Source of the DNA: Armatimonadota bacterium | Lineage (GTDB): Bacteria; Armatimonadota; Hebobacteria; CAIYQO01 | DNA: 64,000 bases | Assembly (NCBI GenBank): GCA_029553475.1 | Contig: JAKPKV010000166.1 | Span: 67,520-131,519, forward strand | Direction of reading: 5' to 3' | Shown: piece after piece, positions 7,974 to 53,716 of the stretch | Position numbering within the stretch: position 1 is the stretch's first letter | How the letters are laid out: each line of letters begins with the position of its first letter | Made by a program: the position numbers and the translations under genes | The notes under the pieces: model-generated | What the model was told of the DNA's origin: nothing | Databases searched by the model: none | Seen by the model: the letters and a program-made list of their open reading frames with translations, nothing else

Positions 7974-8218
7974 GGGTCCTCCCCCGGGGATGGAATCAGG
8001 GTGAAACTTCGCGCCGGGGGGAGGTTCTCCTGCCGGGGACGGGGAGGCGCGGAAAAAAATATGCGTGACCGCGTCCGCTGCCGCGACGTAGCCGCTCGGT
8101 CATGCCGGTCGGGGATTCGCGCCCATCCACGGCCTCCCCCAGAAAAATCATCAGCGCGGCCACTTCTCGCAACAGGCGGCCGCCCTCCGGTGTCGAAACG
8201 AGGTGATGGAGCGGCGTG

Positions 8219-8746
8219 ATGACGACGACGGAACAGCGGGTCACCATACGGGAGGCGGTGCCGGCGGATGCCGAGCGGCTGTTGACGTATATGCGGCAGT
8301 TGCTGGCGGAACCGGAGATTGATTTCATCCTCTCCGCCGGCGAGTTCACCGTATCGGTGGAGCAGGAGCGGCAGCTCATCGAGCGCTATGCCCTGCTGGA
8401 GAACTACAGCTTCCTGCTGGCGGAGGCCGAGGGGCGCATCATCGGCGTGCTGCACTGCCAGGGGGGCACCCTGGCGGCCACCCGCCACGTGACGCGGCTG
8501 GCGATCTCGGTGCGCCCGGAGTGGCGCGACCGGGGCGTGGGCGCGCGGCTGATGCGGGCGGCGCAGGCGTGGGCGCGCGGGGCAGGCATCGTGCGGGTGG
8601 AGCTGGAGGTCTTCGCGCGCAACGCGCGCGCCATCCATCTCTACGAAAAATGCGGCTTTCAGCACGAGGGACGGCGGCAGTGCGCCGTGTATCGCTACGG
8701 GCAGTACCATGATCTGCTGCTGATGGCGTGGCTGGTGGAGGGATAA
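8219..8746 (+). CDS. GNAT family N-acetyltransferase
   Basis: About 175 residues forming one GNAT fold. RPEWRDRGVGARLM is motif A, the acetyl-CoA pyrophosphate loop; NARAIHLYEKCGFQHEG is motif B. It probably acetylates a small molecule or a protein N-terminus; the substrate is unknown. The ATG at 8219 follows GGAG with a seven-base gap; a GTG three bases earlier is possible. It ends two bases before the ketoacyl synthase gene, whose ribosome-binding site lies in its last codons, so the two are translationally linked. Confidence 0.9.
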   Translation: MTTTEQRVTIREAVPADAERLLTYMRQLLAEPEIDFILSAGEFTVSVEQERQLIERYALLENYSFLLAEAEGRIIGVLHCQGGTLAATRHVTRLAISVRPEWRDRGVGARLMRAAQAWARGAGIVRVELEVFARNARAIHLYEKCGFQHEGRRQCAVYRYGQYHDLLLMAWLVEG

Positions 8747-8747
8747 G

Positions 8748-10016
8748 ATGCGGCGAGTGGTGGTCACCGGCATGGGGATCGTCTCCTGCCTGGGCAATGA
8801 CGTGGAAACGGTGTGGCAGGGGCTGCTCGCGGGCCGCAGCGGCATCGCGCCGATGACGCGCTGGAATCCGGACGGCCTGCGCAATCCGCGCATGGGCGAG
8901 GTGAAAGATTTTCCCTGGGACGACGAGCACGACGAAGCCACCCAGTTCGCGCTGTACGCCGCAGGGCGGGCGCTGAATGACGCCGGACTTTCCTGTTCCG
9001 AAAATGGGGACAGTCCCGGTGGTAACCGGGTGAATCATCCGGTCACCGCCGTCAGGGGGACAGTCCCCATTTTCGCGCGCATCGGCCTGGTCTCCTCCAC
9101 CAATTTCGGCGGGGCGTCGGCGTGGGACCAGTACCTCGCCTGCCTGCGCGCGGGGGCGGTGAACGCGGAGACGGCGGAGTTGTTCACCGAGTTCACCTTC
9201 AGCCGCACCGCCGCGCTCATCCGCGAACGCCACGGGCTCGCCGGCCCGGCGCGCGTGCTCTCCCTGTCCTGCTCCTCCGGCACCGCCGCCATCGGGCAGG
9301 GGCTGGATCTCATTCGCCTGGGCAAGGCGGACGCCGTGCTCTGCGAGGGGCATGACAGCCTGGCGGTGCCCAGCCTGGCGGGGCTGTCCATCCTGCGCAC
9401 CATCACCGCCGAGGAGCTGCGTCCCTTCGACGCCCGGCGCAGCGGCACTATCTTCGGCGAGGGCTGCGGCGCGCTGGTGCTGGAGAGCCTGGAGCGCGCG
9501 GAAGCGCGCGGCGCGGCCATCTACGGCGAGGTGCTCGGCTACGCGGTGAACAACAACGCCTACCACCTGACGGCACCGGACAAAGCGGGGGACGGCATCG
9601 TGGCCGTGCTGCGCGCGGCGCTGCGCGACGCCGGGGTGACGGGCGATGCGGTGGACTACGTGAATGCCCACGGCACCGGCACCGCCTATTTCGATGTGAC
9701 GGAGACGACGGCGGTGAAAACGGTGCTCGGCGACCGCGCCTACCGCATCCCCATCAGCAGCATCAAGCCCGCCATCGGGCACATGATGGCCGCCGCCGGC
9801 AGCGCCGAAGCCATCGCCACCCTGTGCGCCCTGCGCGACGGCATCATCCCCCCCACCCTCAACCACGAGCAGCCCGACCCGGACTGCGACCTGGATTACG
9901 TCCCCGGCCGCGCCCGCCGCCAGCCCATCCGCACCGCCCTCTCCATCAGCAGCGGCATCGGCGGGAATAACGCGGCGGTAGTGCTGCGCCGGTGGGATGA
10001 CACATCGTCATCGTAA
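8748..10016 (+). CDS. Beta-ketoacyl-ACP synthase (KAS II/FabF-like) with an in-frame palindromic insertion
   Basis: A 422-residue decarboxylating ketoacyl synthase. Cys175 (LSCSSGTA), His308 (NAHGTGT), Lys340 and His345 (KPAIGH) complete the catalytic set of a condensing enzyme, so it should add malonyl units to an acyl chain on ACP. Residues about 84-109 are abnormal: they are encoded by a 77-bp hairpin element of a repeat family found elsewhere in the window, inserted in the loop between AGL and RIGLVSSTNFGG. The reading frame stays open. It may be a specialised paralog rather than the housekeeping FabF, since no acpP/fabD/fabG genes are near. Confidence 0.93.
   Translation: MRRVVVTGMGIVSCLGNDVETVWQGLLAGRSGIAPMTRWNPDGLRNPRMGEVKDFPWDDEHDEATQFALYAAGRALNDAGLSCSENGDSPGGNRVNHPVTAVRGTVPIFARIGLVSSTNFGGASAWDQYLACLRAGAVNAETAELFTEFTFSRTAALIRERHGLAGPARVLSLSCSSGTAAIGQGLDLIRLGKADAVLCEGHDSLAVPSLAGLSILRTITAEELRPFDARRSGTIFGEGCGALVLESLERAEARGAAIYGEVLGYAVNNNAYHLTAPDKAGDGIVAVLRAALRDAGVTGDAVDYVNAHGTGTAYFDVTETTAVKTVLGDRAYRIPISSIKPAIGHMMAAAGSAEAIATLCALRDGIIPPTLNHEQPDPDCDLDYVPGRARRQPIRTALSISSGIGGNNAAVVLRRWDDTSSS
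8999..9075. repeat. 77-bp hairpin element inside the ketoacyl synthase gene
   Basis: Terminal arms CGAAAATGGGGACAGTCCC and its near-complement at 9056-9075 enclose an inner stem of about 12 pairs (GGTGGTAACCGG with CCGGTCACCGCC). The same GGGGACAGTCCCC core occurs at 24112-24179 and 41371-41384, outside genes. Confidence 0.88.
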
Positions 10017-24040: not shown

Positions 24041-24249
24041 CCCGTTCGTCGTGAGGCACGCAGCGGAGCGGAGTGCCGTGCGAGTGTGCCGCCGGTTGCG
24101 TCCACGCACCAGGGGGACAGTCCCGGTGCAGCCCCTGTGGATCACCTGAGCACGACGTTCAGGGGGACAGTCCCCATTTGACGGCACTCCCCCCTTCGCT
24201 AAAGCTACGGGGGACAAGCCGCGCTGCTGCGTGCCTCACGACGAACGGG
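24041..24249. mobile_element. 209-bp MITE-like element with 24-bp perfect terminal inverted repeats
   Basis: The arms (CCCGTTCGTCGTGAGGCACG..., 24041-24064 and 24226-24249) are perfect inverted copies. Inside lies a second element with two GGGGACAGTCCC cores at 24112-24124 and 24162-24175. There is no open reading frame of note. Related elements occur at 36624-36780 and 41351-41429. The rest of the 394-bp gap 23944-24337 shows nothing further. Confidence 0.82.
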
Positions 24250-41350: not shown

Positions 41351-41429
41351 CCCGTTCGTCGTGAGCACACTGGGGACAGTCCCCTTGTTGACGGCACTCC
41401 GCGCCGCTGCGTGCCTCACGACGAACGGG
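41351..41429. mobile_element. Deleted copy of the CGTTCGTCGTGAG element with a GGGGACAGTCCCC core
   Basis: CCCGTTCGTCGTGAG (41351-41365) pairs with the end of the right arm (41406-41429). Relative to the element at 24041 the left arm is cut short and joined to a GGGGACAGTCCCC core at 41372-41384. CACCAAACC and GGTTTGGTG extend the arms outside. The rest of the 361-bp gap 41192-41552 shows no gene. Confidence 0.75.
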
Positions 41430-52963: not shown

Positions 52964-53131
52964 GACCGCCGGTAGCCTGGGAGCGCCGGTGTCCTCACCG
53001 GCCCGAATGAGCAGCAGGAACCACCCGCTTCGCCGCGAATCAATCTCACAGCGCAATACGCATGCGTATTCCGGATTGCGAAACGTGCCGGTGGGACACC
53101 GGCGCTTCCAGGCTACCGGCGCTCCCAGGAG
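52964..53131. repeat. REP cluster upstream of the transposase gene
   Basis: Two REP-type hairpins (CGCCGGTGTCCTCACCGGC and an inverted relative with CCGGTGGGACACCGGCG) flank the leader. Between them AATACGCATGCGTATT (53055-53070) is a perfect 16-bp palindrome, a possible operator for the transposase. Confidence 0.82.
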
Positions 53132-53137
53132 GGCAGC

Positions 53138-53716
53138 ATGATTCTCTGGCGGTCTCGAGGGTATTTGCCGCACTTTGACGGTGAACACACTACGCAAATG
53201 GTGACATTTCATCTTGCCGATTGTCTTCCCACGGCTCTGCTGCGGCGTTGGCGAGATGAGTTACAATACTTGCCAGTACTCGAAGCAGAGCGAGAACGCC
53301 GTTGCCGAATCGAGGAATACCTTGACAGGGGGCACGGAAATACCTGGCTTCGCGACCCACGTATTGCTGAACTTGCCGAAACAGCACTCCTCTTTTTTGA
53401 TCGCAAACGGTATAATATCCATGCCTGGGTGATTATGCCGACACATGCGCATACGCTCTTTACGCCTTTTCCACCCGACTCACTTTCGACGATCTTGCAT
53501 TCATGGAAGACCTACACCGCACGAGAAGCCAATAAGATCCTCGCTCACACAGGCGCATTCTGGTATAGGGAGTATTATGATCGCTTCATCCGGAATGAAG
53601 AACACTTCGCGCGAGCAAAAAGGTATATTGAAAGCAACCCTATCAGCGCCGGATTATGTACCCGTCCAGAAGATTGGCCATGGAGCAGCGCCTCGTGGCC
53701 TCTCCGACACCGCTGA
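53138..53716 (+). CDS. REP-associated tyrosine transposase (RAYT, Y1 type)
   Basis: A 192-residue single-domain Y1 transposase. VIMPTHAHTLF is the HxH metal motif (usual form MPNHVHLL), and FWYREYYDRFIRNEEHF contains the catalytic tyrosine (usual WQRSYYDHIIR). YIESNPISAGL and PEDWPWSS are also typical. RAYTs cleave single-stranded REP hairpins and are thought to spread REPs. REP elements lie on both sides, and the downstream one begins in the stop codon. It appears intact. Confidence 0.93.
   Translation: MILWRSRGYLPHFDGEHTTQMVTFHLADCLPTALLRRWRDELQYLPVLEAERERRCRIEEYLDRGHGNTWLRDPRIAELAETALLFFDRKRYNIHAWVIMPTHAHTLFTPFPPDSLSTILHSWKTYTAREANKILAHTGAFWYREYYDRFIRNEEHFARAKRYIESNPISAGLCTRPEDWPWSSASWPLRHR

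Follow-up and report, generated by a model that had tools for sequence, protein, structure and literature searches.

A palindromic repeat within a ketosynthase gene

A 73-bp palindromic repeat from a dispersed family was found in frame within a gene for a beta-ketoacyl-ACP synthase in an Armatimonadota bacterium. Distant homologs of this ketosynthase lack the insert, the other known species of the genus carries an insert at the same site in the opposite orientation, and the inserted codons are unconstrained. We consider it highly likely, with a probability of about 0.85, that the insert is a copy of a non-autonomous hairpin repeat of the REP/REPIN or MITE kind, which inserted once, was tolerated as an unconstrained, disordered loop of 25 residues, and possibly had its core flipped. 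The DNA analyzed, referred to here as the window, is a stretch of 64,000 nucleotides (positions 67520-131519 of contig C176) from the source genome G000, which comprises 5.27 Mb in 194 contigs and is 99.5% complete. The genome of the congener, G001, is a MAG with 78% completeness, and both assemblies are fragmented drafts.

The first-pass annotation had described a 77-bp hairpin encoding about 25 residues in frame in a ketoacyl synthase, and such a hairpin was found at the positions given in Table 1. The whole palindrome does span 77 bp, reading CG-AAAATGGGGACAGTCCC ... GGGGACAGTCCCCATTTT-CG, but 77 bp did not hold as the size of the repeat unit. All the aligned family copies consist of one 73-bp unit, and the CG/CG flank is particular to the copy in the window ketosynthase, being absent around the congener copy and others. 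The repeat proper runs from AAAATG to CATTTT, has the sequence AAAATGGGGACAGTCCC-GGTGGTAACCGGGTGAATCATCCGGTCACCGCCGTCAGG-GGGACAGTCCCCATTTT with CG on either side, and encodes the peptide ENGDSPGGNRVNHPVTAVRGTVPIF. As single-stranded DNA, the element was predicted to fold at -29.5 kcal/mol, compared to -16.4 for shuffled sequences (z = -5.6). No common flanking target sequence was seen among the copies aligned, an Rfam scan of the window gave no match, and a search of IMG/VR for the exact arm palindrome AAATGGGGACWGTCCCCATTT found none.

Table 1. Coordinates of the insert, its gene, and related features in the window
Feature	Position	Strand	Evidence
Palindromic repeat element (dimer), 73 bp, in frame, encoding residues 85-109	9001..9073	+	Sequence, family alignment
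Left arm AAAATGGGGACAGTCCC, including GGGGACAG, which matches GGGGWSAS	9001..9017	+	Sequence
Interior, 39 nt, reverse-complemented in the congener ketosynthase	9018..9056	+	Pairwise comparison
Right arm GGGGACAGTCCCCATTTT	9056..9073	+	Sequence
Entire palindrome, 77 bp, including outer CG/CG (possible 2-bp target duplication)	8999..9075	+	Sequence
Beta-ketoacyl-ACP synthase CDS (FabF/KAS II-like), 422 aa, insert-bearing	8748..10016	+	ORF, Pfam domains, homolog alignment, fold match
GNAT acetyltransferase CDS, 1-bp gap 5' of the ketosynthase gene (context only)	8216..8746	+	ORF and domain search
Dimer of the 73-bp family, intergenic, enclosed by a larger second-family palindrome	24108..24180	+	
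Solo core GGGGACAGTCCCC, intergenic	41372..41384	+	

The ketosynthase and its insert

A domain search found that both ketoacyl-synthase Pfam domains (PF00109 and PF02801) span the ketosynthase ORF at full length. As the first-pass annotation had claimed, the catalytic residues downstream of the insert are intact: Cys175, His308, Lys340, and His345 are all present, in columns that were invariant among 45 homologs. The Cys-His-His residues (Cys175, His308, and His345) occur together with a thiolase fold, and the protein is a FabF-like beta-ketoacyl-ACP synthase, although its precise subtype is not fixed since it scored under the NCBIfam fabF equivalog cut-off.

An AlphaFold model of the protein built with 45 sequences had a pLDDT of 89.6 and a pTM of 0.91, and its top Foldseek match was FabF of B. 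subtilis (4ls5; TM 0.91, rmsd 1.5). An earlier model built with 3 sequences was discarded because its quality was unusable (pLDDT 46). The FabF fold is predicted to be intact, with the insert as its only disordered internal segment. Residues 85-106, lying after helix 63-79 and ahead of strand 112-118, were the sole segment with pLDDT <50, so that modeling of the loop, a check proposed earlier, gave a disordered insert within a confident FabF-fold model. In this model, the insert sits in a surface loop joining the helix to the strand, distant from the catalytic residues.

Homologous ketosynthases at 43-61% identity (in G028, G041, G044, G058, and others) lack approximately 20-25 residues at this site, and the missing stretch falls between DAGL and RIG.V. 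The proposed search for an insert-free allele thus succeeded in these homologs but not in close relatives, where none was found; the genus consists of two genomes. In family member G002, a close relative was seen only as a fragment of 39 residues, and the ortholog search in named genomes returned only the congener, one cut contig (L140), and one 39% homolog. The L140 contig, which represents a third lineage, begins downstream of the insert site, cutting the ketosynthase at residue 135. This contig (CAIMEK010000010.1) is labelled Acetobacteraceae, yet its ketosynthase is 82% identical to that of the window, and it is probably a mis-binned Armatimonadota contig.

The rates of substitution were compared between the G000 and G001 ketosynthase genes, for which synonymous divergence is about 0.3. 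In the flanks of the insert, dN/dS was 0.058/0.297 and 0.057/0.349 (ratio about 0.16-0.19), whereas in the insert it was 0.568/0.583 (ratio about 1). On these comparisons, the flanks appear to be under purifying selection, and none was detected on the insert (dN = dS). The suggestion in the first-pass annotation that the element is tolerated as a protein insert agrees with the apparently intact product and with the homologs that do without it. G000 has 7 matches to other ketosynthase-family genes, and these may make the insert easier to tolerate.

The repeat family

The dimer consists of two GGGGACAGTCCC cores at a spacing of exactly 50 bp. Eight core matches were observed in the window, compared to 0.1 expected, and G000 contains 88 exact matches with both strands counted (0 for a reversed control pattern). 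Using the two-core pattern with up to 1 mismatch, we found 35 dimers in G000 and 8 in G001, again with 0 for the reversed control; overall, the family comprises about 36 near-identical dimers in G000 and 7-8 in G001. The other family member genome had zero dimers, and one of the other phylum genomes sampled (G058) showed the two-core pattern, but with a different structure. Interiors are 81% identical within G000, 70% within G001, and 73% on average between the genomes. The arms are always AA[AT]ATG/CATTTT in G001, while most of those in G000 are altered (CACTG/CAGTG, CCAGG/CCTGG, etc.), frequently in complementary fashion. Unlike the majority of G000 copies, the one in the ketosynthase gene has arms of the congener type, AAAATG/CATTTT. 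Covariation in the inner stem was uninformative because the core pairs are invariant. In G000, arm positions 3-5 beyond the core covaried above re-paired controls (P about 0.003-0.03), which is a modest sign of maintained pairing. Solo cores exist alongside the dimers. Since each core is near-palindromic, the two read as direct repeats, and slippage between them would therefore yield a solo core. The first-pass annotation had placed the core in non-coding repeats at 24.1 and 41.4 kb, and these proved to be an intergenic dimer and an intergenic solo core, respectively.

Genes were called with a codon usage model trained on 35 ORFs of the window. The ketosynthase copy was the only clear in-gene dimer among the 43 in G000 and G001; the dimer at C88:3970 overlaps a called gene only at its 5' end. 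All the other dimers lie outside genes, which makes the ketosynthase copy exceptional, and both species share this one exception. This answers the question, raised with the first-pass annotation, of how often the element lies in frame in genes. Long ORFs across other dimers were considered as further in-frame cases and were dismissed after the codon-usage gene calling. The +2 codon register, which is the G000 ketosynthase frame, was stop-free in 40/40 copies (64% of shuffled interiors), and its antisense frame, used in G001, in 38/40 (71% of shuffled interiors), with the remaining frames frequently closed; the copies are related, so these counts describe a property of the family and are not a statistical test. 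The possibility that the element is itself a protein-coding family was dismissed since variability among copies had no codon-position bias.

A second palindromic repeat, CGTTCGTCGTGAGGCACGCAGCG.. / ..CGCTGCGTGCCTCACGACGAACG, lies at 24043-24247 and 41353-41427 of the window and surrounds many GGGGACAGTCCCC copies. It was found near 27/36 of the G000 dimers, placing one palindrome family inside the loop of another. CGTC is present in this second repeat, and it may belong to the CGTC-type REPs.

Opposite orientation in the congener

The insert did not newly arise in G000, as the congener ketosynthase, which is 88% identical, has an insert of equal length at the identical base and in the opposite orientation. 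Its arms match those of the window copy, but its core centers carry T instead of A. The two interiors are 68% identical when one is reverse-complemented and about 34% identical as they lie in the gene. Across the family, pairs compared in opposite orientation had a mean identity of 14.3/39 and pairs in the same orientation 30.5/39. The ketosynthase pair gave 12/39 as lying in the gene and 26/39 in element orientation, and the cores are thus opposite in orientation. At 67%, compared to the between-genome mean of 73%, the two interiors are no closer than any two family members. This lack of extra likeness leaves a common origin of the cores unsupported and other origins plausible. The end residues ENGD and GTVPIF are conserved in both inserts because the DNA arms are conserved. 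At one intergenic site common to the two genomes (G001:C193 and G000:C126:117329), the orientation does not differ between them. The congener locus orthologous to 23.8-24.4 kb of the window (L159, G001:C421) has a palindrome of a sister family (AAATGGGGACTGCAACGAATTTC) in the position that the 73-bp dimer occupies in the window. Families thus replace one another at intergenic sites.

Origin and maintenance of the insert

The 73-bp dimers would have spread, most likely with a Y1 (HUH) REP-type tyrosine transposase mobilizing them in trans, and a single copy would have entered the ketosynthase gene in a common ancestor of the genus's two known species. The insert may have survived because it adds a multiple of three nucleotides overall, because one register, common to both strands of the element, is nearly always stop-free, and because the predicted site is a surface loop away from the catalytic residues. 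The inverted-repeat arms would permit the core to flip or be exchanged without a change of frame, giving opposite orientations. Thus, the orientations seen could stem from a flip between the inverted arms, from exchange with another copy, or from independent insertion. Two insertions in opposite orientations, one in each species at a common site that is tolerated or preferred, with no later flip, would account for ketosynthase interiors as distant from each other as from other family members. Different REPs have also been described at about one recB site in two Xanthomonas species (PMC3733652), and intergenic sites are reused in this genus, as at the 24-kb dimer. However, the boundaries and length of the two inserts are identical to the base, and the copies have no common flanking target sequence. 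The intergenic site shared in the same orientation means that old shared sites exist, and the congener-like arms of the G000 ketosynthase copy suggest that it, too, is old. We therefore find separate insertions possible but rather unlikely and favor a single ancestral insertion, since the boundaries coincide and the G000 copy has AAAATG arms of the old type.

Alternatively, the enzyme may have co-opted the loop, for instance to bind a partner or for regulation. The loop is in frame and of equal length in two species despite their synonymous divergence, and its end residues are conserved. This explanation seems improbable to us: the insert has equal dN and dS, reverse complementation of the interior makes the loop sequences of the two species unrelated, and the loop was modeled as disordered. 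We would be equally surprised if the insert were an invertible coding cassette, in which the core flips between its inverted-repeat arms within living populations and, owing to the codon register that is open on both strands, swaps 25-residue loops without a frameshift. If so, a selfish palindrome would work as a switch that diversifies a loop of an enzyme. The first-pass annotation had named distant orthologs with the same residues, and no repeat elsewhere, as the mark of native sequence, and this is not what was found. Both genomes are drafts in many contigs and one is a MAG, which leaves some room for an assembly error; nonetheless, such an error, or a chance resemblance of native ketosynthase sequence to the repeat, is practically refuted by the dozens of dispersed copies with a fixed 50-bp spacing, the same placement in independent assemblies of two species, the homologs without the insert, and the position of the copy deep within a 135-kb contig.

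Relation to known elements

The first-pass annotation had likened the insert to the palindromic elements inside Rickettsia genes while stressing an unrelated lineage. The likeness stands, but the novelty was overstated because intragenic REP dimers have been reported outside Rickettsia, with O. terrae, Thioalkalivibrio, and Xanthomonas among the examples (PMC3733652). REPs lie inside ORFs in several species, and more than half of these are dimers or groups encoding 20-30 aa (PMC3733652). Like the 73-bp element, intragenic GTAG/CGTC REPs are palindromic dimers within ORFs, encode 20-30 aa that probably form loops, and are sometimes found in the sole REP-tagged gene of a genome (PMC3733652). They differ in carrying a GTAG/CGTC tag. 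The 73-bp element has no unpaired tag, ends in AAAATGGGG/CCCCATTTT, and contains CGTC only within the interior of the opposite strand; its target is also a ketosynthase and not a repair gene. REPINs likewise have two hairpin units in one larger hairpin and are dispersed, non-autonomous, and intergenic, but the 73-bp family lacks the GTAG tag and an adjacent RAYT, and its two near-palindromic cores read as direct repeats. RPEs are also palindromic repeats in frame in protein genes and tolerated by the protein. They occur in many genes per genome (reviewed in PMC10969869), compared to one here, without recurrent in-gene insertion, and the phylum and likely mobilizer differ as well; this sets the element apart from RPEs by description, not sequence. 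With arms of 16-17 bp containing one central mismatch, the element falls within the size range of MITEs (70-300 bp, TIRs of 15-30 bp, no transposase gene of their own). The target site duplication of MITEs could correspond to the CG/CG at the window copy, which is absent at the congener copy and others.

Palindromes within genes have been documented in several phyla, and the general phenomenon is therefore not new. What is new is the sequence family and the phylum, and the opposite-orientation pair is distinctive. GGGGACAGTCCCC was not found in the literature searched, nor were reports of such elements in Armatimonadetes. The ketosynthase copy is a further case of a selfish palindrome that became part of a protein, in a phylum with no such report in that literature. 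The case is unusually well controlled, with one gene, base, and length in two species, opposite cores, and an enzyme class rich in crystal structures. Two questions thus become testable, namely the size of foreign loop that a ketosynthase can accommodate and the ability of such elements to flip in situ.

Candidate mobilizer

Ten Y1_Tnp genes or fragments were found in G000 and five in G001. None of the transposases in either genome adjoins a 73-bp copy, and the 10 G000 loci have no flanking cores. In G001, contig C469 carries a REP-type tyrosine transposase gene with AAATGGGGACAGCAACGAATTTC repeats on both sides, which scored 72.7 bits, below the NCBIfam NF047646 cut-off of 80. The repeats on either side of this gene also form dispersed dimers of 78-80 bp, a sister family ending in AAATGGGGACAGCAACGAA that is present in G001 and absent from G000. 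Its terminal sequence AAATGGGGACAG occurs likewise in the 73-bp family. Repeats flanking Y1 tyrosine transposases share the motif GGGGWSAS and form dimers (Di Nocera et al. 2013, PMC3733652), and GGGGACAG, which matches this motif, is in both arms of essentially every 73-bp copy. Our best guess from these sequence features is that the 73-bp family is mobilized in trans by a Y1 REP-type transposase. The TIR repeats of TIRtrons (TIRYT, Y1-associated; PMC3733652) are likewise self-complementary, often dimers, moderately abundant, and mostly intergenic, with GGGGWSAS, although sequence likeness was compared at this motif only. As in TIRtrons, repeats border a REP-type transposase gene in the congener, where they belong to the sister family, whose ends are the same. 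The 73-bp copies flank no Y1 gene directly and thus are classed not as TIRYT members but only as working like one.

The window itself contains an ORF for a REP-associated tyrosine transposase at 52976-53713, with an NF047646 score of 89.3 bits, above the cut-off. The inverted repeat on its two sides, CCTGGGAGCGCCGGTGTCCTCACCGGC, is 27 bp long and has no relation to the 73-bp element, and this transposase was dismissed as the mobilizer because of these different flanks. Elsewhere in G000, a Y1 transposase gene (L038, 1287-2300, in C131) lies between 129-bp exact inverted repeats, and a homolog with the same end sequence was found in the congener (L145, G001:C621).
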